DNA from: a virus
Virus record (IMG/VR): IMGVR_UViG_3300049491_001022
Coordinates: 1 to 27,103 of that record
Direction: 5' to 3' (one strand)
DNA: 27,103 nt
Below, in pieces: positions 188-19,839 of this stretch (position 1 is the stretch's first letter; every line of letters begins with the position of its first letter). Both the position numbers and the translations under genes were made by a program. The notes beneath the pieces were generated by a model, which was not told the origin of the DNA, made no database searches, and worked only from the letters and a program-made list of their open reading frames with translations.

Positions 188-670
188 ATGCACGACGAAG
201 ACGACCTCAATCTGACGATCAACCAGCATCGCATCGACCTCGATGAGGCGTACATGCAGATGGCCGAGATCTGGGCCAAGCGCTCCAAGGCAAACCGCCT
301 CCAGGTCGGCGCCTTGATCGTCAAGGACAAGCAGATCATCAGCGACGGGTACAACGGGATGCCGGCCGGCGACGTGCACGAGGTGTGCGAGTACTGGGAG
401 CTCCAGGACGATGACCTCATGATGCCGATCCTGCGCACCAAGCCCGAGGTGCTGCATGCCGAGTCGAACGCGCTGATGAAGATCACCGAGAACGGTGGTG
501 TCGGCGCTCAAGGCGCGACCTTGTACACGACGTACAGCCCGTGCTTCGAGTGCGCCAAGCTGATCAAGCAAGCCAAGATCTCGCGGGTCGTGTTCCGCCA
601 CCAGTACCGAGACCCCGGCGGGATCGACATGCTGCGCAAGCGGGGCGTGACCGTGGACCAGCTCGCATGA
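188..670 (+). CDS. dCMP deaminase (cytidine/deoxycytidylate deaminase family)
   Basis: This is a zinc-dependent deaminase that should convert dCMP to dUMP, feeding thymidylate synthesis for phage DNA. Counting from the ATG at 188, the 160-residue protein has the catalytic HAE at residues 90-92. The zinc-binding PCxxC follows, with Cys119 and Cys122. The N-terminal part has the GA-I-KD and GYNGMPAG segments usual for phage dCMP deaminases. The start at 188 is chosen because the family domain begins about 18 residues later and a GGAG lies at 171-174, although its spacing is long. The frame is also open upstream to the window edge, so an N-terminal fusion cannot be excluded. The stop overlaps the next gene's ATG (ATGA), suggesting coupled translation with the polymerase piece. 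Confidence 0.88.
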   Translation: MHDEDDLNLTINQHRIDLDEAYMQMAEIWAKRSKANRLQVGALIVKDKQIISDGYNGMPAGDVHEVCEYWELQDDDLMMPILRTKPEVLHAESNALMKITENGGVGAQGATLYTTYSPCFECAKLIKQAKISRVVFRHQYRDPGGIDMLRKRGVTVDQLA

Positions 671-1218
671 AGGAACTCTCAGTCGAGCTGAACGATCGAA
701 CCCTGCGGTTCGACGGTGTCTCCATCGTCCCGCCCGAGTTTGTGCAGGACTTCATGCTGCGTGGCCTTCCAGTTCAGCACATGCGGCTGAGCTCGACAAC
801 CGACGAGACCGAGCAGTTCAACTCCCAAGCTGGTGATGACGCCTTGCGCCTCGTCTCTGGGGAGCCGGTGAACCTGAACTTCTCCTGGAAGCTGCCACAA
901 GAGTTCCTCAGCCTGGACGTCGTCGAGCACGTGTCGGTGGTGTTCGGCGAGCGTCTGCCTGCCCTGAAGTATGACGCTACCCAGACCGAGCTCGCAATCC
1001 ACCGGGTGGCCCAGGAGCTCCAGCAGTTCAGGAACCGCGGCCTGCTCGACCTGCTGCGCGTCATCATCTACACGCTCCATCGCTTCCGCGAGACCGGCCA
1101 GGTGTTCGGAGTCGGGCGTGGCTCGTCCTGCGCCTCGTACATCCTGTTCCTGCTTGGCCTGCACGTGGTCGACCCGATCAAGTTCAAGGTCGACCTGGAG
1201 GAGTTCATGCACGCATAG
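667..1218 (+). CDS. DnaE-like (family C) DNA polymerase, N-terminal palm piece
   Basis: This 183-residue protein ends with the first half of a bacterial DNA polymerase III alpha palm. GVGRGSS at 148-154 matches the nucleotide-binding GRGS segment of DnaE. The stretch ASYILFLLGL...DPIKF and the end DLEEFMH match the region just before the PDxDxDF catalytic motif. The protein stops there, two residues after FMH. The catalytic Asp residues are on a separate gene at 6942-7514. No PHP exonuclease domain is present; residues 1-100 are unrecognised. ATGA overlap couples it to the deaminase. Its last 14 bases overlap the end of an antisense GIY-YIG endonuclease. The endonuclease may have cut the gene, or the gene may already have ended there. 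The polymerase assignment rests on motifs and is good for the palm; activity is unproven. Confidence 0.78.
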   Translation: MKELSVELNDRTLRFDGVSIVPPEFVQDFMLRGLPVQHMRLSSTTDETEQFNSQAGDDALRLVSGEPVNLNFSWKLPQEFLSLDVVEHVSVVFGERLPALKYDATQTELAIHRVAQELQQFRNRGLLDLLRVIIYTLHRFRETGQVFGVGRGSSCASYILFLLGLHVVDPIKFKVDLEEFMHA

Positions 1219-1783
1219 CGCACTTGTTGAAGTGATACCTGTAGAGGTTCGGCCCACGCCCCTCTACTTGACAGTGCGGACAGATCTTCACTCGCTGTGC
1301 CGGGTGTTCGCCACGAGCTGCCAGGTTTAGGTTTCGTTTCGTGGCGTTCTCCGATCCACGCTCGCCAAGCCAGTTGTGCCGTCCCTCATCAACAAGCTTC
1401 TTTACTCTTCCACTTGCCGCCACAGAATAGTTCGCTGTTGAACGCGTCTTTGCCATCTCTTTGACGACATCGGAGGACCATCCCTTGCCGCCCCGCGTTT
1501 GGTTATACCCGTTCGAATCCTCGTCTCTGATGTAGGCCCGGTACTGCTCAATGAGAATAATCTCCAGGTCGTCCACTGACGCGGTAGCGCTAGCCAGAAC
1601 CTTGAATGAAAAGTTCTCTGCGCCGTGTTTACGAATAGCTCGGCAAAGAGGCGAACCCGATCCCTTGGCCGCGGACAGAAAGTGATCACGCCGCCGATCC
1701 TCAGGTCGATTTTTCGTCTGACCAATGTAGACTTTTCCGTTCACTTCGTTCGTGAGACAATACACAATGCGCACATCTTCCAT
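1205..1783 (-). CDS. GIY-YIG homing endonuclease with C-terminal zinc finger
   Basis: This is a mobile endonuclease gene antisense to the surrounding operon. The N-terminus has the GIY-YIG pattern as IVYCLTN...KVYIGQT. It continues with the conserved Arg in RRRDHF, a catalytic Glu in LIEQY, and GYNQTRGG. Near the C-terminus CPHC followed by H and KC forms a likely C2HC zinc finger, as in many phage GIY-YIG enzymes. The ATG at 1783 directly follows a GTG at 1786; neither has a strong ribosome site. Composition is more AT-rich than the neighbours, as expected for an incoming element. Its 3' end overlaps the polymerase N-piece by 14 bases and its 5' end overlaps the plus ORF 1767-1982, so it may have disturbed both. 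Confidence 0.88.
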   Translation of the reverse strand: MEDVRIVYCLTNEVNGKVYIGQTKNRPEDRRRDHFLSAAKGSGSPLCRAIRKHGAENFSFKVLASATASVDDLEIILIEQYRAYIRDEDSNGYNQTRGGKGWSSDVVKEMAKTRSTANYSVAASGRVKKLVDEGRHNWLGERGSENATKRNLNLAARGEHPAQRVKICPHCQVEGRGPNLYRYHFNKCAMRA

Positions 1784-1982
1784 CACTTATTTAGATCAAA
1801 AACCAGAGCCCCCGCCGAACCGGGTCGAACTCACCGGGTTCGGCTCGCTGTTCTTCAACTCCATGGCCGAGTGCAACGAGTACCTGGCCGAACCGCTCTG
1901 GCGGCGCATCCTCGGGCGCACGAAGTACCAGCGCAGGCTGGCTGAAGATCAAAACCGGCTGACGGCCGGCAGAGGTAAATAG
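1767..1982 (+). CDS. Unknown small ORF, possibly the remnant of a gene cut by the endonuclease
   Basis: From about 1800 to the stop the frame has the GC-rich codon use of the real genes. The peptide includes VELTGFGSLFFNSMAECNEY and a basic, Arg-rich tail ending in TAGRGK. The first ten codons lie inside the antisense endonuclease gene and look non-native. The true start may therefore have been lost or moved by the insertion; an alternative is ATG 1863. No ribosome site supports either start. I do not recognise the protein. It could be a residual 3' fragment or a short gene translated from a longer transcript. The last bases contain a TAAATA element for the next gene. Confidence 0.45.
   Translation: MRTSSITYLDQKPEPPPNRVELTGFGSLFFNSMAECNEYLAEPLWRRILGRTKYQRRLAEDQNRLTAGRGK
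1788..1794 (-). promoter_or_regulatory. CTAAATA element before the GIY-YIG gene
   Basis: On the minus strand CTAAATA lies immediately before the GTG/ATG of the endonuclease. It resembles the T4 late promoter core TATAAATA and recurs before two other endonucleases here. It sits so close to the start codon that a transcript from it would have essentially no leader, so it may be coincidental. Confidence 0.3.
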
Positions 1983-2010
1983 GGAACATGCCCCGTTTGG
2001 GCTCCAGGAG
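1976..2010 (+). promoter_or_regulatory. Late-type TAAATA promoter, leader hairpin and Shine-Dalgarno
   Basis: TAAATA (1976-1981) resembles the -10 of T4 late promoters (TATAAATA). It is followed by a small stem GCCC/GGGC (1990-1993 with 1999-2002) and then AGGAG (2006-2010), five bases before the ATG at 2016. The same order, TAAATA then stem-loop then AGGAG, occurs at 16430-16454. A late promoter here would suit the co-chaperonin downstream. Confidence 0.45.
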
Positions 2011-2015
2011 AACCA

Positions 2016-2231
2016 ATGTCCAATGCCATCCGTTCAGCGCGCGGAGACCACGTTGACTTCGAGCTGCTGGCCATCAAGGCTCAGCTCGCCGCAAAGCCAG
2101 TTCCAAAGCCAGTCGAGCAACGTCGCGTTGCGATCGAGGAACGCGAAGGAACCCGGCCAGTCGAGTCCGCCGCCGTGACTGAACTGCTCAAGGCTGCCGA
2201 AGCCGAGAAAACCGCGCCAAAGCGCAAATAA
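2016..2231 (+). CDS. Small charged protein of unknown function
   Basis: A 71-residue hydrophilic protein with mixed charge, rich in Ala, Glu, Lys and Pro. It has a PVPKPVEQRR stretch, a predicted helix VTELLKAAEAEK and a basic end PKRK. The AGGAG at 2006-2010 gives a strong, well-spaced start. It is the first gene after a late-type promoter and sits 13 bases before the GroES-like gene, so the two are probably co-transcribed. No domain is recognised. The likely flexible, charged nature would suit a binding or scaffold role, but this is only inference. Confidence 0.7.
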   Translation: MSNAIRSARGDHVDFELLAIKAQLAAKPVPKPVEQRRVAIEEREGTRPVESAAVTELLKAAEAEKTAPKRK

Positions 2232-2244
2232 CCAGAGACCTCCC

Positions 2245-2586
2245 ATGTCCGCTGACTTCACCGTTCTTCGTCCTCTCAAGTCCACCATCCTGTTCCAGTT
2301 CATGGACGAGGTGGGTGGCGCCAAGGGTCGCTTTCACGAGCGCTCCAAGTCTGGCCTGATCATCCCTGTGATGGGCAAGGCGCAGACCGAGTCCAACCGC
2401 TGGGGTCGTGTCGTCGCGATCGGCCCTGACGTTCAAGGCATCGCCGTCGGCGAGTTCATCCTCGTCGCCGCACAGAAGTGGACCACGTCCGAAACCTGGC
2501 AAGGCGAGAAAGTCTGGAAGACCGTCGACATCCAGGAAGCCGTGATCTGTGTCACGGACGACGAAGCCAGCACGGTGACGATGTGA
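2245..2586 (+). CDS. GroES-like co-chaperonin
   Basis: A 113-residue protein with the overall pattern of chaperonin-10. The N-terminal strand is LRPLKSTILFQ. A mobile-loop-like region SKSGLIIP sits where GroES has GGIIIP. A WGRVVAIGPD strand matches the GroES VVAVGPG turn. A gated segment and a C-terminal strand with VICVTDD follow. In T4-like phages a co-chaperonin (gp31) replaces GroES so that the host GroEL can fold the major capsid protein. Length is slightly above bacterial GroES (about 97) and near T4 gp31 (111). There is no strong ribosome site; 13 bases separate it from the previous gene. A distant GroES fold is likely, although identity is by pattern only. Confidence 0.68.
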   Translation: MSADFTVLRPLKSTILFQFMDEVGGAKGRFHERSKSGLIIPVMGKAQTESNRWGRVVAIGPDVQGIAVGEFILVAAQKWTTSETWQGEKVWKTVDIQEAVICVTDDEASTVTM

Positions 2587-2780
2587 GTGCTTGCGCGTGC
2601 ATGGGCCCAGCGGGAGATTGCCCGTGCATTCGCCAGAGTCGGGGTCAGAAGGTTCCAATCACTGAGACCTTCATCAGCCCCGACCTCTTCGCGCTGCTTC
2701 CTGAAGAGGATCAACGCACCATCAATGACCTGAAGCACAAGGCGCTGGCCTTGTACATCGTCGCCAAGAACACCCCATGA
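2583..2780 (+). CDS. Cys-rich mini-protein
   Basis: A 65-residue protein starting at GTG 2583, which overlaps the previous stop as GTGA. The N-terminus holds CAC and, eight residues on, CPC, suggesting one bound metal ion. The rest is a helical segment with DLFALLPEEDQRTINDLKHKAL. The function is unknown. It sits between the co-chaperonin and a large membrane protein and overlaps the latter's start as ATGA, so it is translated within the same operon. Confidence 0.7.
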   Translation: MSACACMGPAGDCPCIRQSRGQKVPITETFISPDLFALLPEEDQRTINDLKHKALALYIVAKNTP

Positions 2781-4135
2781 TCTTCGTCCTGCTGACCTTC
2801 CTCGCCGCATTTGCGATCGAGGGCCTTGGAACTTTCGTCTCCGTGATCGGCCTGAGCACGCTGTTTGGGGCGAACCCAATCATCATCGCGCTTGCGATCG
2901 CGCTCGACGCCGGCAAGCTGATCGTCGTCACGCTCCTGTACTCGTACTGGAAGCAGCTCGGCAAGCTGATGAAGTCGTACGCGCTGATTGCGGCGACCAT
3001 CACGATGATCATCACCTCAGCTGGTGCCGCCGGGTACCTGTCTGGCGAGTTCCAGAAGGCGATCCTTGGCACGCAAGAGGGCAGCCTCAAGGTCGACGTC
3101 CTCAAGGGTCAGATCGCGAAGTACGAGGAACGGAAGAAGCAGATCGACGCACAGATCGCCGCCCTGCCAGAGAAGACGACCGTCAATCAGCGCCTGCGCT
3201 TGATGAATGGCTTCAAGGCCGAACAGTCTGACCTGCAAGCGAAGATCAGCGAGATCGACAAGCAGCTGCCTGACCTGCAGATCAAGCAGATCGGCGTAGA
3301 GGCCAAGGCCGGCCCGATCCTGTACATCGCCAAAGCGTTCGACATCCCGGTTGAAAGCGCCGTGAAGTACGTGATCCTGATGATCATCTTCGTGTTCGAC
3401 CCGCTCGCCGTCTTCCTCATCATCGCTGGGAACTTCCTGCTCCATCAACACCGGATGAAGAAAGACCACAGCGTTGCCGATGCGGACCTGTTCGCTGGCA
3501 GCGAAGATGAGCTGATCATCCTCAAGGACAAGCACGCGTTGAACCAACAGCTCATAGACGATGACTCGCCACGCATGCACGCTGAGAAGGCTGAGAAGTT
3601 CTGGGCCGAGCAGGACAAGCTCGCCGCAGCCCGCACCGCCGCCCACCGCGCCCGCTTGGAAGCCGACACGCTGCCTGAGCCGGCGTTCTATCCAACGATG
3701 CCACCCGTCCCACCAGCCCGCGAAGAGTACGTCGGGCCGATGACAAAGACGTTCGATGAGACATACGTCGAGAAAACGTATGTCGCTGACGAGGACGATC
3801 ACGACGGCCCGCTGCCACGGACGCACGACGAGACCTTCGTCGAGAACTCGTCGATCACGACCGGTGAGTTTGAACCGGAGCCCCGCGGTGTCACCGCCGA
3901 GGAGCTGGTGCAGAGCCAACCAAGCCAGATCTTCGAGGTGCTCGAGCCAACCCCTGTGTCGCCTGAGATTGTTCCTGACACCACCCCAGCTCGCGAGCAG
4001 ATCAAGCTCTCCGACCTGATGGGCAAGCCACGCTCGAGCCTGAACGACGTGGAAGCCGACCCCACGGTCAGGTTCGACGAGAATCCAGTGATCTCGATCA
4101 CGTCACAACAGTACTCGAACCTCAAGCAAGGTTGA
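2777..4135 (+). CDS. Large membrane protein with coiled coil and acidic tail
   Basis: A 452-residue protein. Hydrophobic segments at about residues 3-25, 33-56, 66-88 and 196-222 predict four membrane spans. Between spans three and four, residues 104-172 form a charged coiled coil. The C-terminal half (about 225-452) is soluble, Pro- and acid-rich. It contains two related copies of a short repeat, one near TFDETYVEKTY and the other near THDETFVEN. The architecture suggests an inner-membrane protein with a long cytoplasmic tail that could gather other proteins. It starts at an ATGA overlap. I do not recognise the family by name; roles in membrane reorganisation, lysis control or superinfection exclusion are only guesses. 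A promoter begins about 4 bases before its end. Confidence 0.8.
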   Translation: MIFVLLTFLAAFAIEGLGTFVSVIGLSTLFGANPIIIALAIALDAGKLIVVTLLYSYWKQLGKLMKSYALIAATITMIITSAGAAGYLSGEFQKAILGTQEGSLKVDVLKGQIAKYEERKKQIDAQIAALPEKTTVNQRLRLMNGFKAEQSDLQAKISEIDKQLPDLQIKQIGVEAKAGPILYIAKAFDIPVESAVKYVILMIIFVFDPLAVFLIIAGNFLLHQHRMKKDHSVADADLFAGSEDELIILKDKHALNQQLIDDDSPRMHAEKAEKFWAEQDKLAAARTAAHRARLEADTLPEPAFYPTMPPVPPAREEYVGPMTKTFDETYVEKTYVADEDDHDGPLPRTHDETFVENSSITTGEFEPEPRGVTAEELVQSQPSQIFEVLEPTPVSPEIVPDTTPAREQIKLSDLMGKPRSSLNDVEADPTVRFDENPVISITSQQYSNLKQG

Positions 4136-4160
4136 CCAGGGTTGCCGTGCAAGGTACAAT
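4132..4160 (+). promoter_or_regulatory. Sigma70-type promoter
   Basis: TTGACC (4132-4137) matches the -35 consensus at five of six positions. A 17-base spacer leads to TACAAT (4155-4160). This is the best classical promoter in the window. Transcription should start near 4167, which is the A of the next gene's ATG, so the message may be leaderless. It drives the clamp-loader operon. Confidence 0.75.
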
Positions 4161-4166
4161 CCTTGT

Positions 4167-4433
4167 ATGGACAACATCATCGGCTTCTTGACGGGTGCTG
4201 GCATCGGCCTCCTCGTCTCCATTCCCCTTGGCCTGCTCGCGACGTACTTCATCGTGATGTGGAAGATCCAACGGGTGCTCAGCAACGCGGGTACTGAGGC
4301 GACTGGCCTTGCGGCCAAGCTCGTCAAGCGTGCCGCTCTCGAGTACGCGAAGAAACGTGTGCTCGCCCCGCCTTCACCGCGTGAAGATGCCGTGACCAAG
4401 GCGCAGATCGACGCGTACGCGAGGCCGCAATGA
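4167..4433 (+). CDS. Small membrane protein, first gene of the clamp-loader operon
   Basis: An 88-residue protein with one long or two short N-terminal hydrophobic segments (about residues 4-33, IIGFLTGAGIGLLVSIPLGLL) and a basic amphipathic C-terminal half. The start codon lies six bases after a TACAAT -10 box and has no Shine-Dalgarno, suggesting a leaderless transcript. It overlaps the clamp-loader ATPase gene as ATGA. The function is unknown. A role tethering replication to the membrane is conceivable from position alone. Confidence 0.75.
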   Translation: MDNIIGFLTGAGIGLLVSIPLGLLATYFIVMWKIQRVLSNAGTEATGLAAKLVKRAALEYAKKRVLAPPSPREDAVTKAQIDAYARPQ

Positions 4434-5338
4434 ACAAAGTCTGGACAGAAGTCTACCGCCCGCAGTCCATCAAGGACGTGATCTTCGGCAGCGAGCATGA
4501 GCGCGAGACCTTCTCACGGTTCGTCAAGGACGGCGAGTTCCCGAACATGCTCTTGGTCGGCAACCCCGGCACCGGCAAGACCTCGATCTCGCTCTCACTG
4601 GTGAACGACCTGAAGGTCGACCCCAGCGACGTGATGAAGATCAACTGCTCAAGCGAGCAGATCGAGGCGATCCGCTCCAAGGTCGAGACCTTCGCGTACA
4701 CCATGCCGATGGGCGAGTTCAAGGTGGTGCGGCTCGAAGAGATGGACTACCTGTCGCTCCCCGCCCAAGGCCTGCTCCGTGTGTTGATCGAAGAAGTCCA
4801 AGGCTCGTGTCGCTTCATCTGCACAGCGAACTACGCGAACAAGATCATGCCGGCCCTGCAAGATCGGTTCCAGGTGTACACGTTCAGCTCGCCAGACCGT
4901 GACATCGTGACAGTGCGGGCAGCCGACATTCTGGAGAAAGAAGGCGTCGAGTTCGACGTCGACGACCTGCTCAAGGTGGTCGAGGCCGGGTACCCGAGCT
5001 TCCGCAAGATCACGCACCTGCTCGAGCAGTCCTCCAAGACCGGCAAGCTCGTCATCACTGGGGCTGGCGCCGCTGCGGACTGGAAGCTTCAGCTGCTGCC
5101 ACTGCTCGAGACCTCGAACTTCCAGGCCGCTCGAAAGCTGGTGTGCGAGACCGCAAGTCGTGAAGAGCTGCAAGACGTGTTCAGCTTCCTGTACCGAAAC
5201 GTGAACCGCGTACCGAAGCTCAAGGACAAGTGGGACCAAGCCGTGATCTTGATTGCGCAGTACCAGTACCAACACCAGTTCGTGGCCGACGTCGAGATCC
5301 AAGTCGCCGCGTTGTTCATCGAGCTGGGCGCGCTATGA
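4430..5338 (+). CDS. Sliding-clamp loader ATPase, T4 gp44-like
   Basis: A 302-residue AAA+ ATPase of the RFC/gp44 type that loads the sliding clamp on DNA. It opens with WTEVYRPQSIKDVIFG, the standard start of clamp-loader subunits. Walker A is GNPGTGKT at 44-51. The Walker B region at about 99-106 ends in EEMD. Sensor 1 is FICTAN at about 129-134, and the arginine of DRF (about 145-147) sits where other loaders have the SRC arginine finger. A C-terminal helical collar follows. Length is close to T4 gp44 (319). The gp62-like partner is encoded 180 bases downstream. The operon also encodes the catalytic half of a DnaE-like polymerase. Confidence 0.93.
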   Translation: MNKVWTEVYRPQSIKDVIFGSEHERETFSRFVKDGEFPNMLLVGNPGTGKTSISLSLVNDLKVDPSDVMKINCSSEQIEAIRSKVETFAYTMPMGEFKVVRLEEMDYLSLPAQGLLRVLIEEVQGSCRFICTANYANKIMPALQDRFQVYTFSSPDRDIVTVRAADILEKEGVEFDVDDLLKVVEAGYPSFRKITHLLEQSSKTGKLVITGAGAAADWKLQLLPLLETSNFQAARKLVCETASREELQDVFSFLYRNVNRVPKLKDKWDQAVILIAQYQYQHQFVADVEIQVAALFIELGAL

Positions 5339-5529
5339 GAGAACGCTATTTCACAATCTTGGTTGTTCTGGTGCTTTTTGCTGGCGGCACGCTGATCGGG
5401 TTCGGTGCACGCAGGGAACAAGGACTGAAGGACATCTGCACTCAGAAAGGTGGTGTCTGGCTTCATCGCGATTTTATGTGCATTAGCAAGGACACTGTCA
5501 TTGATGTGAGGGCACCACGTGGCCGTTGA
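5335..5529 (+). CDS. Small single-span membrane protein with two cysteines
   Basis: A 64-residue protein, start overlapping the clamp-loader stop as ATGA. Residues 5-24 form a hydrophobic signal anchor, followed by a soluble part with Cys at two places (ICTQKGGVW and MCIS). In the periplasm these could form a disulfide. Codon use is unlike its neighbours, with TAT, TTT, TTG and GTT, suggesting recent arrival. It separates two clamp-loader genes that are normally adjacent and overlaps the second by 11 bases. The function is unknown. Confidence 0.72.
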   Translation: MRERYFTILVVLVLFAGGTLIGFGARREQGLKDICTQKGGVWLHRDFMCISKDTVIDVRAPRGR

Positions 5530-6031
5530 TCGCGATGCGTTCGACCTCTTCCAGTTTCTCGGCAAGCTGAACCGGCGCGACCAGCACGCGTTCACCGAGC
5601 TGACCGAGGAAGGTCAGAAAGCAGCGCACCCACTGGTGATCATGCGCTGGCTCAGTGGCACCTCTGACCCGGCCCAGATCATTCGGCTGAACGAGTTCGC
5701 AAACAAGTACGTGTTCAGCCTGGGGCATGACAAGGAGCTGCTGTTCAAGCTCCTGGCGGCCGCTTGTACTGGTCGAGTGAACCGCACAACATGGCTCAAG
5801 GGCCCAACCTCAACAAGCACCAAGCTTGCGATCGCTGCGATCATGGCCAAGTACCAATGCTCGACCCGCGAGGCCAAGGAGTATCTCCCGCTGCTCGAAG
5901 CCGCGGACGTGGTAGGATACGCCGAAGACGCGGGCTGGGAAGCCGACCAGCTGAAGAAGCTGAAACTCGAACTGGGGAAAGATGATGAACCGCGAGGAGC
6001 TGCGAGCAAACGCAGCAAGTCGAAGAAGTGA
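5519..6031 (+). CDS. Clamp-loader small subunit, T4 gp62-like
   Basis: A 170-residue protein starting at GTG 5519 after a well-placed GAGGG. The conserved-looking middle, PLVIMRWLSG...LNEFANKYVFSLGHDKELLFKLL, resembles the small loader subunit of T4-like phages. That subunit lies next to gp44 and completes the clamp-loader complex. A helical region follows, with TKLAIAAIMAKYQCSTREAKEYLPLL. The basic tail ends in SKRSKSKK. Position next to the gp44-like ATPase supports the call; sequence similarity to T4 gp62 itself is weak. It overlaps the next gene by 50 bases. Confidence 0.72.
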   Translation: MAVDRDAFDLFQFLGKLNRRDQHAFTELTEEGQKAAHPLVIMRWLSGTSDPAQIIRLNEFANKYVFSLGHDKELLFKLLAAACTGRVNRTTWLKGPTSTSTKLAIAAIMAKYQCSTREAKEYLPLLEAADVVGYAEDAGWEADQLKKLKLELGKDDEPRGAASKRSKSKK

Positions 6032-6722
6032 CGGCACCGTCACTGAAGCAGCGCCGACCTGGCACTGCGAGTTCTGCCTGCGCGACTGGCAAACCGAGAA
6101 CGGGTTCATGAAGCACTTCTGCAAGGAACGCGAGAAGCTAGAGCTGGCGAAGTCGCCACTCGGTCAGGCCGCGTACGGGTACTACGGCCAGTGGCTAAGG
6201 AACAAGAAGCGCTCGGTGCCAGCTCAAGAGACCTTCATGACCTCCCGCACGTTCAATCACTTCGTGAAGTTCGCCGAGTGGGTCACCAAGCTCTCCATCC
6301 CGAACCCAACACGGTTCATTGAGCTCATGGTGGAGACCGACACCCCTCCAATGCTCTGGTGCCGTGACACCACGTACGCGCTGTACGTGCAGTGGTACGA
6401 CAGCGCGTACCCGCCTGAGAGCCAGTTCGTCGAGACCCTGGACGCCCTCAAGCGGTACGCCTCCGATCTTGGATGTGAGCTCAAGGACGTGTTCGCTGCG
6501 CTCGGCATCAGCGAGCTCACGAAACTCGCACGCCGTCGAAAGCTCTCGCCGTGGCTGCTGCTCTCGTCGCCCAGCTTCCTGCGCTGGATCCAGACGGTGC
6601 CACCAGCGGACCGCGAGAATCTGAACCAAGCGGTGGACTTCATGGCGTACGTCAATCGCATCAACGCTCGCCCAGATCTGGCCGCAGAGTTTAGGAGTGC
6701 CTGTGAGCAAGAAGCTTGTTGA
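5982..6722 (+). CDS. Zinc-finger protein of the replication operon
   Basis: A 246-residue protein with one predicted zinc finger near the N-terminus: Cys29 and Cys32, then His45 and Cys47 (WHCEFC...KHFC). The remainder is mostly helical, with many Trp and Tyr residues and no recognised catalytic motif. The start ATG ATG at 5982 has GGGGA upstream and lies inside the end of the gp62-like gene. Its place between clamp-loader and polymerase genes suggests a DNA-binding accessory factor, for example in primer recognition or late transcription. That role is inferred only from context. Confidence 0.72.
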   Translation: MMNREELRANAASRRSDGTVTEAAPTWHCEFCLRDWQTENGFMKHFCKEREKLELAKSPLGQAAYGYYGQWLRNKKRSVPAQETFMTSRTFNHFVKFAEWVTKLSIPNPTRFIELMVETDTPPMLWCRDTTYALYVQWYDSAYPPESQFVETLDALKRYASDLGCELKDVFAALGISELTKLARRRKLSPWLLLSSPSFLRWIQTVPPADRENLNQAVDFMAYVNRINARPDLAAEFRSACEQEAC

Positions 6723-6942
6723 GGAAGAGATGTTCGCTGGGTACCCACTCGCCACCCGTGCGTTCTATGGCAAGATCATCTACATGATGCTGCTCAACGA
6801 CTTGGCGTACCGCAGAGGGTACTTCGACGTGCGGCTCTGTGACACCAATGACCCCTTCACCTGGTTCCGGTTCGTGGAGCAGATCCCCGACATCAAGCTC
6901 TGGTTGGACATTGATGACGACATCGAGGGAGTGACGCGGTAA
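6703..6942 (+). CDS. Small acidic protein upstream of the polymerase C-piece
   Basis: A 79-residue protein starting at GTG 6703, supported by AGGAG at 6693-6697. A GTG at 6697 in the same frame lies within that ribosome site and is less likely. It is rich in aromatic and acidic residues (LWLDIDDDIEG near the end). It overlaps the zinc-finger gene by 20 bases, and its stop shares one base with the ATG of the polymerase C-piece. No family is recognised. Tight coupling on both sides suggests it acts with its neighbours. Confidence 0.7.
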   Translation: MSKKLVEEEMFAGYPLATRAFYGKIIYMMLLNDLAYRRGYFDVRLCDTNDPFTWFRFVEQIPDIKLWLDIDDDIEGVTR

Positions 6943-7514
6943 TGGATGTCGACGTCGACGTGCCAGGAACCTTCAGGCCAGAGCTTGTCTTTCCAGGTTG
7001 GGTGCGCGCTTCGGTGGTGCGCGATGGCAAGCTGACCCCTCACCCCTGTGGCGTGTACCCACAAGCGATCGCGCAGGACCCCGTCACCGGCTTCGCCGCC
7101 ATTCCGTACGAGGAAGCCGAGGAGCTGGGGTTCTTCAAGATCGACTTCTTGCACCTGAACGTGTACTCGAGATTCGACACTCGGGCCGAGATCGACGCGT
7201 TGGTTGCCAAGGACCCAGATTGGACGCTACTTCAGCTGCCGTCCAATCACCCCAAGCTCTTTCAGCTCGCGAACCATGGTGAGCTGCTGTTGAAGCTCAA
7301 GCCCTCGAACATCGAGGAGCTGGCGGACGTGATGGCCTTGATCCGACCCGGCAAGAAGTCGCTGGTTGGCCTGTACCAGAAAGATCGAGACATGGCGCGA
7401 CGAGTGCTGTGGGCCAAGGACGAGAGCGGGTACTCGTTCAAGAAAAGTCACGCGCTCTCGTACGCGTACGTGCTGGTACTTCAGCTGCACCTGATTGAAC
7501 AGGGGCGACTGTGA
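6942..7514 (+). CDS. DnaE-like (family C) DNA polymerase, C-terminal catalytic piece
   Basis: A 190-residue protein holding the catalytic parts of a polymerase III alpha palm and a reduced fingers region. It opens with MDVDVDVP, matching the PDxDxDF motif that carries two catalytic Asp. PHPCGVY at 33-39 matches the DnaE HAGGVV segment. KIDFL at 66-70 supplies the third Asp. LFQLANHG (106-113), ALIRPGK (132-138) and FKKSHALSYAY (166-176) match conserved finger motifs. Compared with E. coli DnaE, the thumb between motif one and HAGG is nearly absent, and everything after SHxxxYA is missing. The missing N-side of the palm is on 667-1218. A one-base overlap with the previous gene and a GTGA overlap with the next tie it to the operon. 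Confidence 0.82.
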   Translation: MDVDVDVPGTFRPELVFPGWVRASVVRDGKLTPHPCGVYPQAIAQDPVTGFAAIPYEEAEELGFFKIDFLHLNVYSRFDTRAEIDALVAKDPDWTLLQLPSNHPKLFQLANHGELLLKLKPSNIEELADVMALIRPGKKSLVGLYQKDRDMARRVLWAKDESGYSFKKSHALSYAYVLVLQLHLIEQGRL

Positions 7515-8934: not shown

Positions 8935-9579
8935 CTACCGGCCGAGGGCCCAACCTGGGCCCGGGGCGCAGACAGCGCGTTTTCTGACACCATCACCGTT
9001 ATTCCACCAGCGAGTTCCACGCGTCACGCTGTTTGCCGCTTGCCAAGCACTTAGTTTTGCTTTCGTAGACTCTTGTTGGTTCCACCCAACTCTTCTAATC
9101 CCACGGTGAGATTCTGACATTTTGGCACGCGAAACTGAAGAATGTTGTCTATCTGTCCACACATCAGAAGTGCGCTTTTTGATCCACTCTCTTGTTTGTT
9201 TTCTACCACGAATCGAGTCACCAATTTTGGATTTGTGCTCTTCGCTAAGAGGTTTACCGCGTTTGATAGCGGATACCATTTTGCCAAACTCAGTCTTTAC
9301 CCAATGATATGATCTAGACTTGAGCGTGTTCCCCTTTGACATTCTCATGACGGCGCAGGCCATCTTGTATTTGTTGCTTCCAACCGACATTTTCACCAAG
9401 AGCAAGTGACACAAAAGATGCTCTCTTGCGGTTAGATCCACGAGATTGGCCACATCGTCTTGGCCGCCAAAAGATCTCGGAATGATGTGATGTCTTTCCT
9501 TGTATCCAACAACTTGTCGTCCGCGAGCATTGTTGATGATAGAATAATACCACTTGGTGTACTTTGAGTCGCTAAACAT
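8935..9579 (-). CDS. HNH homing endonuclease with NUMOD-like repeats
   Basis: A 214-residue antisense mobile endonuclease. The HNH core is ERHHIIPRSFGG followed by NLVDLTAREHLLCH. A NUMOD3-type DNA-binding motif follows (GKPLSEEHKSKIG). The C-terminus GTRWWNNGDG...GPGWALGR is shared in form with the GIY-YIG enzyme at 11126-11794, suggesting module exchange. AGGAG precedes the ATG, and a CTAAATA late-type element lies about 24 bases upstream. It is clearly AT-richer than its neighbours. Its ATG and the opposite-strand nucleotidyltransferase ATG overlap as CATG (9577-9580). Confidence 0.9.
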   Translation of the reverse strand: MFSDSKYTKWYYSIINNARGRQVVGYKERHHIIPRSFGGQDDVANLVDLTAREHLLCHLLLVKMSVGSNKYKMACAVMRMSKGNTLKSRSYHWVKTEFGKMVSAIKRGKPLSEEHKSKIGDSIRGRKQTREWIKKRTSDVWTDRQHSSVSRAKMSESHRGIRRVGWNQQESTKAKLSAWQAANSVTRGTRWWNNGDGVRKRAVCAPGPGWALGR

Positions 9580-10669
9580 GATTTATTCTCCTAATCCAGC
9601 CGTATTTAGCAACATTCTCTGTTGCATAACTTACGGTTCGCACCTGTACGGCACGAGCACACCCACCTCAGACTTCGACTTCAAGGTCGTCACGCTGCCG
9701 CCGTACCGTCGTCTGATCCTGGCGAAGCCGCTGAACGTCGAGCGGTTCAAGTTCGACGCGGACGGCAACCCCGTGGGCGACGACAAGTCGATGCCGCCGA
9801 ACGGGTACGAGGCCGAGCACACGCCCGTCCAGAAGTTCGTGCACGACTACCTGGGCGGCCAGGCGTACGCCGTCGAGGTCGTCTTCGCGGTGCTGCAAGG
9901 GTACCACCAGAAGCACACCCCGCCGGTCGGCACGCTGGGCTCACGCCGAGCAGCCGCGTTCGAGGAGCTGTGCCGCACGCTCGCGCACGACTTCCGGCAT
10001 CGGAACGTGAACGGCATGGTCGGCTTCGCGATGAAGCAAACGTTCGACTACGTGCGTCGCGGTGAGCGCCTGAACCAGGCGCAAGCGGTGATGGAGGAGA
10101 TCAGGAAGCTGTTCATCCTGTTTGGCGCGAATGGCACGGTCGGCAGCTCGCTGCGCCTCGACACCTCAATGTCCAGCGTGTGGGCCGGAAACGAGAGCAC
10201 CGTGCTCGACGAGCTGCTCAGCCGAACGGGGCTTGGGACCGGCACCAGCATGAACAACAACAAGACGATGCGCACCCTCGAGCTGAACGGGCGCTCGTAC
10301 CTCGAGACCACTGGGCTGGTGCACCTTGAGAACGCGGTGCACAAGCTGGTTGATCAGTACGGTGAGCGCAGCACGAACGCGTCTAAGACCGACGTGGACT
10401 GGAAGTCCCTGTCACACGCGGTGCGCGTGTACGAACAGGTGCTCGAGCTGCTGGATACCGGGTACATCGAGTTCCCGCGGCGGAATGCTGAAGATCTGCT
10501 CAAGATCAAGAGCGGGCAGCGAGACATCGAGGAAGTGAAGGGCCTGCTGCGCCGGCTGGACGATCAAGTCATGGCGGCCGTGGCCACCTCCGCGGTGCCA
10601 GAAGTGGACGAGGACATGCGCCGACGCGCCGATGAGATGCTGTACCGCTGGCTCGAACGTCAGTACTGA
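9578..10669 (+). CDS. Nucleotidyltransferase of the DNA polymerase beta superfamily
   Basis: A 363-residue protein. The N-terminus has the superfamily signature: TYGSHLYGT (Gly20, Ser21) followed about ten residues on by SDFDFK, with Asp32 and Asp34 as metal ligands. Such phage proteins are predicted to transfer nucleotides to RNA, protein or small molecules; the substrate here is unknown. The rest is helical with no added motif. The ATG at 9578 is the only plausible start close to the motif, but its upstream sequence lies inside the HNH gene and has no ribosome site, so the original 5' end may have been replaced. The stop overlaps that of a convergent minus-strand gene within a palindrome. 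Confidence 0.82.
   Translation: MIYSPNPAVFSNILCCITYGSHLYGTSTPTSDFDFKVVTLPPYRRLILAKPLNVERFKFDADGNPVGDDKSMPPNGYEAEHTPVQKFVHDYLGGQAYAVEVVFAVLQGYHQKHTPPVGTLGSRRAAAFEELCRTLAHDFRHRNVNGMVGFAMKQTFDYVRRGERLNQAQAVMEEIRKLFILFGANGTVGSSLRLDTSMSSVWAGNESTVLDELLSRTGLGTGTSMNNNKTMRTLELNGRSYLETTGLVHLENAVHKLVDQYGERSTNASKTDVDWKSLSHAVRVYEQVLELLDTGYIEFPRRNAEDLLKIKSGQRDIEEVKGLLRRLDDQVMAAVATSAVPEVDEDMRRRADEMLYRWLERQY
9603..9609 (-). promoter_or_regulatory. CTAAATA late-type element before the HNH gene
   Basis: CTAAATA on the minus strand lies 23 bases before the ATG, with AGGAG between them. The spacing fits a T4-type late promoter giving a leader of about 17 bases. It lies inside the 5' coding part of the divergent nucleotidyltransferase. 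Confidence 0.45.
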
Positions 10670-11085
10670 GGGGCCCCGGCGTCGCGGAACGCGATGACGC
10701 CGGCCTTCGGTCGAATCTCGACTCCAGCTGGAACTCGTGACGCCCGGCGTCGGCGGATTCGGATCGGGGTCGTCAGATCGTACGAGAACGACCTGCCGAC
10801 CAGACGAGTGACGTATGCGAGATCGAACGTCTTGTAGATCTTGCGCGCGACGCTGGTCAGCCCAAGTCTCGAGAGCTCGAACGAGAGCGGGTACTTGCCG
10901 TCAGAGTGTTGGAGCCACTTCTCGGCGACGTCGATGAACGTGATCAGGTCGACGCCCTCTTGCTGGGCGTAGTCGAGAACGTACGCCGTGATGGCTTCGT
11001 CGTCGATGTTGTCAACGACGACGAGGTACCGCTCGCGCCGGTGCTCGAGCATCGAGAGCAGGTTCAGGTTTCCGCGATCAGACAC
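10660..11085 (-). CDS. Conserved unknown minus-strand gene, 5' end disturbed by an endonuclease
   Basis: The frame codes convincingly from about 11118 down to 10660. It includes the ordered stretch RERYLVVVDNIDDEAI, ITFIDVAEKWL, YPLSFELSRLGL and TFDLAYVTRLVG. No function is recognised. I give GTG 11085 as start, but coding-quality sequence begins upstream at KRKIPTLIIEH, right at the end of the GIY-YIG gene. The first codons of that endonuclease (GTG 11794, VLHFVAAGPGK) read well as the missing N-terminus. If so, the endonuclease entered this gene after about eleven codons. The gene may now use an internal GTG/ATG or an ATT at 11124 that has GGGAG eight bases upstream. Confidence 0.65.
   Translation of the reverse strand: MSDRGNLNLLSMLEHRRERYLVVVDNIDDEAITAYVLDYAQQEGVDLITFIDVAEKWLQHSDGKYPLSFELSRLGLTSVARKIYKTFDLAYVTRLVGRSFSYDLTTPIRIRRRRASRVPAGVEIRPKAGVIAFRDAGAPQY
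10676..10703. terminator. GC-rich hairpin after the nucleotidyltransferase, possible terminator
   Basis: CCGGCGTC (10676-10683) pairs with GACGCCGG (10696-10703), and TCGCG/CGCGA pair inside, allowing a bulged hairpin. It lies just downstream of the nucleotidyltransferase stop and inside the 3' end of the convergent gene. No T run follows. It could attenuate plus-strand transcription into the antisense gene. Confidence 0.3.
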
Positions 11086-11125
11086 GTGCTCAATGATCAG
11101 CGTGGGGATTTTTCGCTTGCTAATT

Positions 11126-11794
11126 TTATTTTCTCCCAGGGCGGAAGCCCATGTTAGTGTAGGCTTCGATCTGATCTGGTAGGACCTTGATGCACCGCGC
11201 GCCGTTCGACATCCACCGAGTTCCACGAACTGCTTCTGCGATTCGAGCTTTGCTTTCAGCAGTTCGTTTAAGGTTCTTCGTGGCTGCTGAATGTTGTGCC
11301 TTTCTCTCCGGAGTCCACATGGCAAAACTCTGCGCGGTTCTTAGTTCCCTGTACTCTGGATTTGTCCACGCTCTAGCAATTCCGCTGGCTGTTTTCTTTC
11401 GGAATTCTGGATCAGCCCAACGTTCCGTCTGCATCGCCGCGAGGCGAGCCCTATCTTCAGCGGAGTATTCAAGTTTGACCCTGCCACCTTGGCCACCAAG
11501 CGCTAGGTTCAAACTCATCTCGTCCTTGACGAGGGCCTCAGTGACGAACAACTTTTCAAGTGAGATCAGATCCTCACGCGTGTTGGCCGTGGCCAACACG
11601 GTTCTGACGTGTTGATCGCGACCATGTTTATCGATCGAGCGCTGGAGCATCTTGCCACTACCGAGATAGTTATCGTCAAGATCGTTCGTCGAATGCATGC
11701 CCACGTAGTACTTGCCTGAGCGAAGACACGTGGTTTTGTAGAGAATGTGATGCACCTGGTATTTACCCGGCCCGGCGGCCACAAAATGTAACAC
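11126..11794 (-). CDS. GIY-YIG homing endonuclease
   Basis: A 222-residue antisense mobile endonuclease. The GIY-YIG core reads HHILYKTTC...KYYVGMHS, followed by YLGSGKMLQRSIDKHG, a Glu in SLEKLFV and a NLALGGQGG turn, the arrangement of phage Seg-like enzymes. The middle is Arg/Ala-rich with tandem W-x-nP-E-R/Y repeats. The end GTRWMSNG...GFRPGR matches in form the C-terminus of the HNH enzyme at 8935-9579. The ORF begins at GTG 11794, but its first eleven residues probably belong to the interrupted host gene. GTG 11755, just after a GTAAATA element, is the likelier native start. Confidence 0.87.
   Translation of the reverse strand: MLHFVAAGPGKYQVHHILYKTTCLRSGKYYVGMHSTNDLDDNYLGSGKMLQRSIDKHGRDQHVRTVLATANTREDLISLEKLFVTEALVKDEMSLNLALGGQGGRVKLEYSAEDRARLAAMQTERWADPEFRKKTASGIARAWTNPEYRELRTAQSFAMWTPERKAQHSAATKNLKRTAESKARIAEAVRGTRWMSNGARCIKVLPDQIEAYTNMGFRPGRK
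11760..11766 (-). promoter_or_regulatory. GTAAATA late-type element at the endonuclease 5' end
   Basis: TAAATA on the minus strand is followed four bases later by GTG 11755, in frame with the GIY-YIG domain. It recalls the elements before the other two antisense endonucleases. It may mark the junction between the interrupted gene and the inserted element. Confidence 0.35.
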
Positions 11795-18851: not shown

Positions 18852-19315
18852 TCTACCTGCGCGGTTACCACCGCCCGCTGAAGTCGCAGGTCGAGGAGGC
18901 GCAGAAGTACGGTGACGATGAGTTCACCACGCTGGCGAGCAAGGACTTCACGTCGAACTTGCCGAAGATTGAAGATCGCGAACCCGACCAGAACGCGATC
19001 CTGCTCAAGCTTCGACACGTTGAACCGCACGACGACCCATGGGTCAGCAACGGCGAAGAGCCTACACAGCCTGATCGGCGCGCCGTGTTCTGGCTGCTCA
19101 AAGGCGACCTGCACCTTCAAGTCGCGAACTCGTACTGGCACATGCACGCTGGTGACTTCGCCGTCTTCAACGACGCGCTGGTGCACTCAGTCGTCGCAAC
19201 TCGTCAGTGGCTCGGCTCGGCCTGGCAGCTCAAGAAGCTCGATCACGAACCGATCGAGCGGTACCTCAAGCGTCTCGAGACGCACATCGTCTGGAAACCC
19301 AAGGCCAAGACCTGA
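18848..19315 (+). CDS. Cupin-like protein
   Basis: A 155-residue protein starting at GTG after TAGGTG. The middle has a double-stranded beta-helix look: FWLLKGDLHLQV, WHMHAGDFAVFND and then LVHSVVAT. These resemble cupin or 2-oxoglutarate oxygenase strands, with His residues as possible metal ligands. The full HxD...H triad of the oxygenases is not evident, so an enzyme call is not made. TGATG coupling leads to the HNH gene. Confidence 0.5.
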   Translation: MIYLRGYHRPLKSQVEEAQKYGDDEFTTLASKDFTSNLPKIEDREPDQNAILLKLRHVEPHDDPWVSNGEEPTQPDRRAVFWLLKGDLHLQVANSYWHMHAGDFAVFNDALVHSVVATRQWLGSAWQLKKLDHEPIERYLKRLETHIVWKPKAKT

Positions 19316-19839
19316 TGCAGATTTTTTACACCGAGTTGCCCCTCGCCGAGGGCTTCGCCGTTGGCGACCATGTGCACAAGCACGAGCGGCTTGTCAAGGG
19401 GCGCGAGGTCAGTCTCGCTTCTGGGTACGGGCTCTTCAGCTCGCTGCGGAATGGCCCGATCATGTGCTGGAAGTGCAAGTGCGTCGCGGATCGCTGGGTC
19501 GTCGGCAAGGGACCGAACGACCAGAAGTCGAAGCCGGTGATGAACCTGTTCGCGACCCGCCACCATCGCCCGACCAAGAAGCGGCCGCTGGGCTGGACTG
19601 AGCTGGTGATGATGACGCGTGACCACATCATTCCGAAGTCAGAGGGTGGCATGGACTCGATCGCGAACCTGCGACCTGGCTGTGACAAGTGCAATGGCGA
19701 GCGCGGCTCGAAGATCAACAAAGCCGATCGCAAGTTCATGGACAAGCATCCTGAGCTGATCGATCCGATTCGTCGGGCAAAGGGCCAGGAAGCGAAGGCC
19801 CGAGTGCTGGCACATCAACGTGGAGAACAACATGCGTGA
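19315..19839 (+). CDS. HNH nuclease with zinc-binding Cys pairs
   Basis: A 174-residue protein. The HNH core is RDHIIPKSEGGMDSIANLRP (residues 102-121), followed by CDKCN (123-127). An earlier CWKCKC (51-56) may complete a zinc site. It is on the plus strand, in operon with its neighbours and with their GC-rich codon use. It therefore looks resident rather than a recent mobile insert like the four antisense endonucleases. It may act in packaging, repair or as a captured endonuclease; the sequence does not decide. Confidence 0.82.
   Translation: MQIFYTELPLAEGFAVGDHVHKHERLVKGREVSLASGYGLFSSLRNGPIMCWKCKCVADRWVVGKGPNDQKSKPVMNLFATRHHRPTKKRPLGWTELVMMTRDHIIPKSEGGMDSIANLRPGCDKCNGERGSKINKADRKFMDKHPELIDPIRRAKGQEAKARVLAHQRGEQHA

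Follow-up and report, generated by a model that had tools for sequence, protein, structure and literature searches.

Do two short genes lying 5.7 kb apart on a stretch of viral DNA encode the two chains of a single DNA polymerase? The stretch, referred to here as the window, is the complete 27,103-base IMG/VR record IMGVR_UViG_3300049491_001022 and represents part of a larger, jumbo-like phage genome. An initial annotation of the sequence had proposed a miniature family C polymerase divided between two genes; both open reading frames (ORFs) were found as described, and we name them polN (protein P0001) and polC (protein P0002):

667–1218, plus strand: polN, predicted N half of a split minimal DNA polymerase III alpha subunit (Pol III alpha), 183 amino acids (PF07733, phrog_11127)
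6942–7514, plus strand: polC, predicted C half, 190 amino acids (phrog_11778, Pol III alpha profile match)

The products of the two genes are probably the paired chains of a single minimal family C polymerase that would act as an auxiliary enzyme at the phage replication fork, a reading favored by the homology and predicted fold of each half, by invariant motifs and by co-occurrence in sufficiently complete genomes; assembly and catalysis are inferred.

The placement of both proteins in family C, as the initial annotation had it, was borne out by profile searches. In polN, residues 102–182 match PF07733 (E = 2.3e-7, which passes the Pfam cut-off), and phrog_11127 covers nearly the whole protein (E = 8e-30). 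Profiles built from phage relatives recovered Pol III alpha structures from Taq, E. coli and M. tuberculosis in the PDB with co-linear alignments; polN aligned to residues 359–454 of Taq, its GRGSS falling on GRGS in the Taq and E. coli enzymes. The GVGRGSS segment of polN is the phosphate-binding part of the palm, and the chain, which ends in GVGRGSSCASYILFLLGLHVVDPIKFKVDLEEFMHA, stops just before the catalytic strand; for its first ~73 residues, no counterpart in DnaE was detected. The polC protein begins with MDVDVDV, contains KIDFL, LFQLANHG, ALIRPGK and FKKSHALSYAY, and is spanned in full by phrog_11778 (E = 2e-54), and PF17657, a Pol III fingers family, matches weakly in addition (8e-4, just short of the cut-off for that family). 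Its profile was aligned to Taq residues 463–824 in three ordered blocks. The catalytic aspartates are D2 and D4 (D401 and D403 of E. coli) and D68 (D555), and K66 of the KID motif is the equivalent of K553; the aligned Taq residues are D463 and K616/D618. The initial annotation was thus right that the three catalytic aspartates are supplied, but they all lie in the second gene rather than being shared between the two, with polN providing GRGSS.

Each half was modeled separately with AlphaFold2, using alignments of viral relatives, and compared with the PDB using Foldseek. The polC model (mean pLDDT 93.0, pTM 0.81) returned Pol III alpha for all of its top 14 hits (probability 0.91–1.00, best E = 5.8e-4, TM-score by query up to 0.56), with only noise thereafter. 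The polN model (mean pLDDT 92.3, pTM 0.67) likewise returned Pol III alpha for its top seven hits (probability 0.82–1.00, E = 0.03–0.4), followed by noise; this structural match is supportive yet weak by E-value, and the predicted family membership of polN is carried by the sequence profiles.

The point of division and the extent of reduction emerge from the same alignments. The polN and polC matches on Taq are separated by ~8 residues, immediately before the catalytic DxD strand, which agrees with the initially proposed break right before the catalytic motif. Bacterial DnaE (E. coli and Taq; PDB 2hnh, 2hpi and 3e0d) has the same order of motifs—GRGS, DxDxD, KxD, RP(G) and an NKSH-type sequence—but as one chain of ~1160–1220 amino acids with PHP, thumb, full fingers, OB and tail, which are lacking from the phage pair. 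The D463-to-K616 span comprises 153 residues in Taq and 64 in polC (89 shorter), and the K616-to-H817 span 201 and 104, respectively (97 shorter). Because both spans are shorter than in Taq, the thumb region and half of the fingers are missing; the first shortening fits a thumb deletion and the second a halved fingers region. Judged by sequence, the pair is homologous to family C, yet it is not a typical DnaE. A C-terminal QLHLI was considered as a clamp-binding motif and set aside, since a comparable glutamine is present in the same helix of DnaE.

No intein or Hint domain was found in either half by Pfam scan, consistent with the earlier remark that no intein ends are visible. An intein-split protein was ruled out on this ground and because the N halves end 2–10 residues after the palm motif. 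Cyanobacterial dnaE is also a family C polymerase encoded by two genes, but there the parts are joined by intein trans-splicing and the division falls at another position, whereas the phage halves lack an intein domain. A fused single-chain ORF containing both N and C halves was not found at any of the >200 loci searched.

Sequence constraint was assessed over 106 distinct C halves (105 complete) and 96 distinct N halves. D2, D4 and D6 of polC are present in 105/105 complete C halves, K66 and D68 of KxD are unvarying in all 106, and the fingers motifs (RP at 135–136, and FKKSH) are kept and nearly invariant. In Atu_ph07 and some other matches the DxD start seems at first to be missing; this reflects a start-site miscall or a truncated match, the full ORFs carrying DxD. 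Among the N halves, the residues equivalent to G148, G150, R151, G152, S153, R113 and E117 of polN are invariant (96/96), and the stop codon invariably lies 2–10 residues past the conserved F180. Compared with close relatives, pN/pS was 0.24–0.30 for polC and 0.31–0.46 for polN, indicating purifying selection, although these values are rough because synonymous sites are near saturation.

The split recurs, with an identical break, in related phages of the RaK2/121Q/GAP32/PA5oct/XacN1 type. By tblastn against sequenced phages, polC was found in 96 records and polN in 98, each at one separate place per record; most are jumbo phages, including RaK2, 121Q, GAP32, CBB, PA5oct, XacN1, Atu_ph07, SCTP-2 and others. 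The break has the same position in every copy, and about 90 sequenced jumbo phages have the split. A few N-half matches, such as those in Cellulophaga phages, probably represent different compact enzymes of family C, one of them 525 amino acids long. Among whole records, one C half was present in 19/19 and one N half in 23/25, the two misses being fragments. Within IMG/VR, at least 592 stretches carry a C half and at least 591 an N half; for the latter, the single-protein query P0001 matched none and an alignment query succeeded. An Alishewanella phage with a genome of just 141 kb has both halves, and the pair thus also occurs outside jumbo genomes. The trees of N and C halves run parallel (r = 0.91 over 34 genomes, with none of 2000 permutations as high), and a family B polymerase is present in 17 of 19 relative records, both misses again being fragments. 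Neither damage nor a recent event accounts for the split.

Jumbo relatives with a PF07733 match have one per genome, namely the N half; the exception is a set of three marine contigs with a single-chain enzyme. In one of these (L240; L-numbered relatives are IMG/VR contigs), positions 1107–2798 on the minus strand encode a compact family C polymerase of 563 amino acids without PHP, and L116 and L119 have it as well (PF07733, E = 1e-42 to 1e-44, ~6.6 kb from the C half). The L240 enzyme shares the palm and fingers motifs with the split pair, but as one chain that is additional to the C half. In many jumbo phage records the C half is labeled 'hypothetical protein' or 'putative membrane protein', which looks like misannotation.

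The two-gene arrangement is a conserved oddity already described in 2021 and not a new discovery. Iyer et al. 2021 (PMC7824862) report a "minimal, split Pol III alpha" in group 2.2 jumbo phages, alongside a family B polymerase; they assign NTP binding to the N unit and metal and template binding to the C unit, and propose that it works with the family B enzyme in one-strand synthesis or in repair. The group 2.2 protein (phrog_11127 and phrog_11778) has the same N/C division over separate genes; it too occurs with a T4-like clamp loader, and its chains likewise carry no further Pol III domains. Unlike its group 2.2 relatives, the window has a GIY-YIG gene added where polN ends. To the published account, the present analysis adds scale and motif invariance, the absence of fused forms, the exclusion of the endonuclease as the cause, the order in which the halves flank the clamp loader, and an Arg-to-Glu/Asp change at the position of E. 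coli R390; the last two are possible new details, and no mention of the R390 change was found in the passages of Iyer et al. consulted. A divided replication polymerase is also known from phage MIJ3, of the same phage group, in which a family B polymerase is split with a split intein and an intein/HNH element (PMC6892783); the Pol III halves, in contrast, belong to family C and have neither intein nor HNH.

The genes at and between the two halves bear on the origin of the split and on its probable setting:

1205–1786, minus strand: free-standing GIY-YIG homing endonuclease, overlapping polN at its end (PF01541, 2.7e-7; phrog_314, 4.8e-29)
2245–2586, plus strand: GroES/Cpn10-like protein, conserved in the polN cluster (phrog_931, 4.8e-6; PF00166, 0.0034; synteny)
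4430–5338, plus strand: gp44-like large subunit (AAA+) of the clamp loader, encoded between the halves (phrog_168, 1.2e-72; PF00004; same place in seven relatives)
5519–6031, plus strand: probable gp62-like clamp loader small subunit (phrog_225, 5.8e-6; phrog_11758, 1.5e-15)
5982–6722, plus strand: conserved neighbor, upstream of polC in the clade (phrog_11058, 1.5e-36; conserved order)

In the closest relatives the order, over about 5–6 kb, is polN, a small ORF, the GroES-like gene, a membrane protein gene, gp44, the gp62-like gene, phrog_11058, (a small ORF) and polC. In the window's subclade the clamp-loader genes are thus flanked by the two halves. Spacing varies across the wider group: ~5 kb with the clamp loader flanked in the window and its closest relatives, ~14–15 kb in XacN1 and RAS14, in which ~10 kb of other genes separate phrog_11058 from polC, and tens of kb in phages of the RaK2/121Q type. 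PolN adjoins the clamp loader in GAP32, 121Q, XacN1 and the window's clade, and the GroES-like gene also adjoins polN in GAP32 and 121Q. In RaK2, CBB, XaC1, PA5oct, SCTP-2, Vibrio 2.275.O, Atu_ph07, Phosso and Slickus01, primase or helicase genes are found a few kb downstream of polC.

As a mechanism, we propose that the GS motif, which binds phosphate in the palm, would come from the N chain, and the three metal-binding aspartates, the lysine of KxD and shortened fingers from the C chain; the two would join at the loop immediately preceding the catalytic strand and form one active site without protein splicing. Such an enzyme would act at the fork together with the T4-like clamp loader and family B polymerase; its likeliest role is that of an auxiliary polymerase of low processivity, extending primers before hand-off or filling gaps. 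The stronger claim, that chains of 183 and 190 residues form a working active site with an acidic residue at the R390 position, among the smallest family C enzymes and beside a family B replicase in many jumbo phages, we rate only somewhat above even. Several observations weigh against the proposal. By Pfam scan there is no match beyond palm and fingers, with no PHP, OB or clamp-binding tail, and the thumb is also absent. The position equivalent to E. coli R390, an arginine in DnaE (both E. coli and Taq read FERFL), is Glu in 82/96 and Asp in 14/96 N halves, a conserved charge reversal beside the active site; the chemistry or the partner may accordingly differ from those of DnaE. The tree correlation demonstrates joint inheritance only, and r alone does not prove contact. 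The window is a 27 kb fragment in which its own family B polymerase was not seen, and no experiments on activity or complex formation of any member were found in the openly licensed literature.

The position of the GIY-YIG gene, which does not figure in the initial annotation, exactly at the break could suggest that a single gene was lately broken in this phage by the endonuclease, or by decay. That gene is absent from the polN 3' site of seven relatives with the same gene order (L002, L006, L007, L008, L010, L013 and L015), which have a 57–676 bp spacer after polN and polN ends of HD-stop in six and HE-stop in L015, compared with HA-stop in the window. Because these seven have the same split without it, the GIY-YIG gene is not the origin of the split but a later, window-specific insertion at the polN edge; with the split also shared by about 90 sequenced jumbo phages, a recent break is scarcely credible. 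An ancient endonuclease-driven split of the ancestor is possible.

Other alternatives accept two intact genes and differ over what their products do. We consider it unlikely that the chains form a nucleotidyltransferase rather than a processive DNA polymerase, serving in end-tailing, RNA/DNA repair or priming-like synthesis: the invariance of the metal-binding and GS residues while the thumb and half of the fingers are gone, the replacement of R390 and the RNA-repair genes of some of these phages (an RNA ligase gene is present in the window) would suit such an activity, but the nearly invariant fingers motifs and a neighborhood of clamp-loader and primase/helicase genes do not. The initial annotation had also raised catalytically dead regulatory or decoy subunits, here taken as mimics of host Pol III, for which small size, missing domains and the R390 reversal might speak; this is quite improbable, since the metal-binding residues never vary, and a decoy would have no need of three catalytic aspartates and a KxD lysine kept in >100 diverse copies. 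Separate action of the halves with different partners, without a joint active site, would accommodate the wide separation of the genes, tens of kb in most jumbo phages; it is hard to credit, however, because each side of the break holds an incomplete portion of a single palm, the conserved motifs of the two complement each other, and presence patterns and trees match. If the two-chain polymerase is real, a family C core without accessory domains would define the minimal needs of this polymerase fold and would show why phages with a family B replicase keep a second polymerase. Chains of ~185 amino acids each are easy to co-express, making the 2021 prediction directly testable.

Several minor observations concern other genes. 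Family B polymerase matches fall in at least two open frames in PA5oct (W05), Atu_ph07 (W04), G003 and Slickus01 (W07), recalling the published intein-split PolB of MIJ3, a PA5oct relative (PMC6892783). A conserved neighbor with a phrog_11637 domain is encoded at 10660–11325 (minus strand) of the window, and its homolog comes after polC, on the opposite strand, in L002, L004, L006, L007, L010 and XacN1. The window is rich in mobile nuclease genes, further likely examples being an HNH gene with NUMOD3 at 8935–9579 (minus strand), a gene with a weak SegE-like GIY-YIG match at 11126–11794 (minus strand) and an HNH gene at 19207–19839 (plus strand). Finally, the DNA ligase gene appears in two relatives as two matches ~0.9 kb apart, covering residues 1–195 and 170–447 (L005, 5142–7438; L010, 16632–18979), which suggests an insertion or a split.

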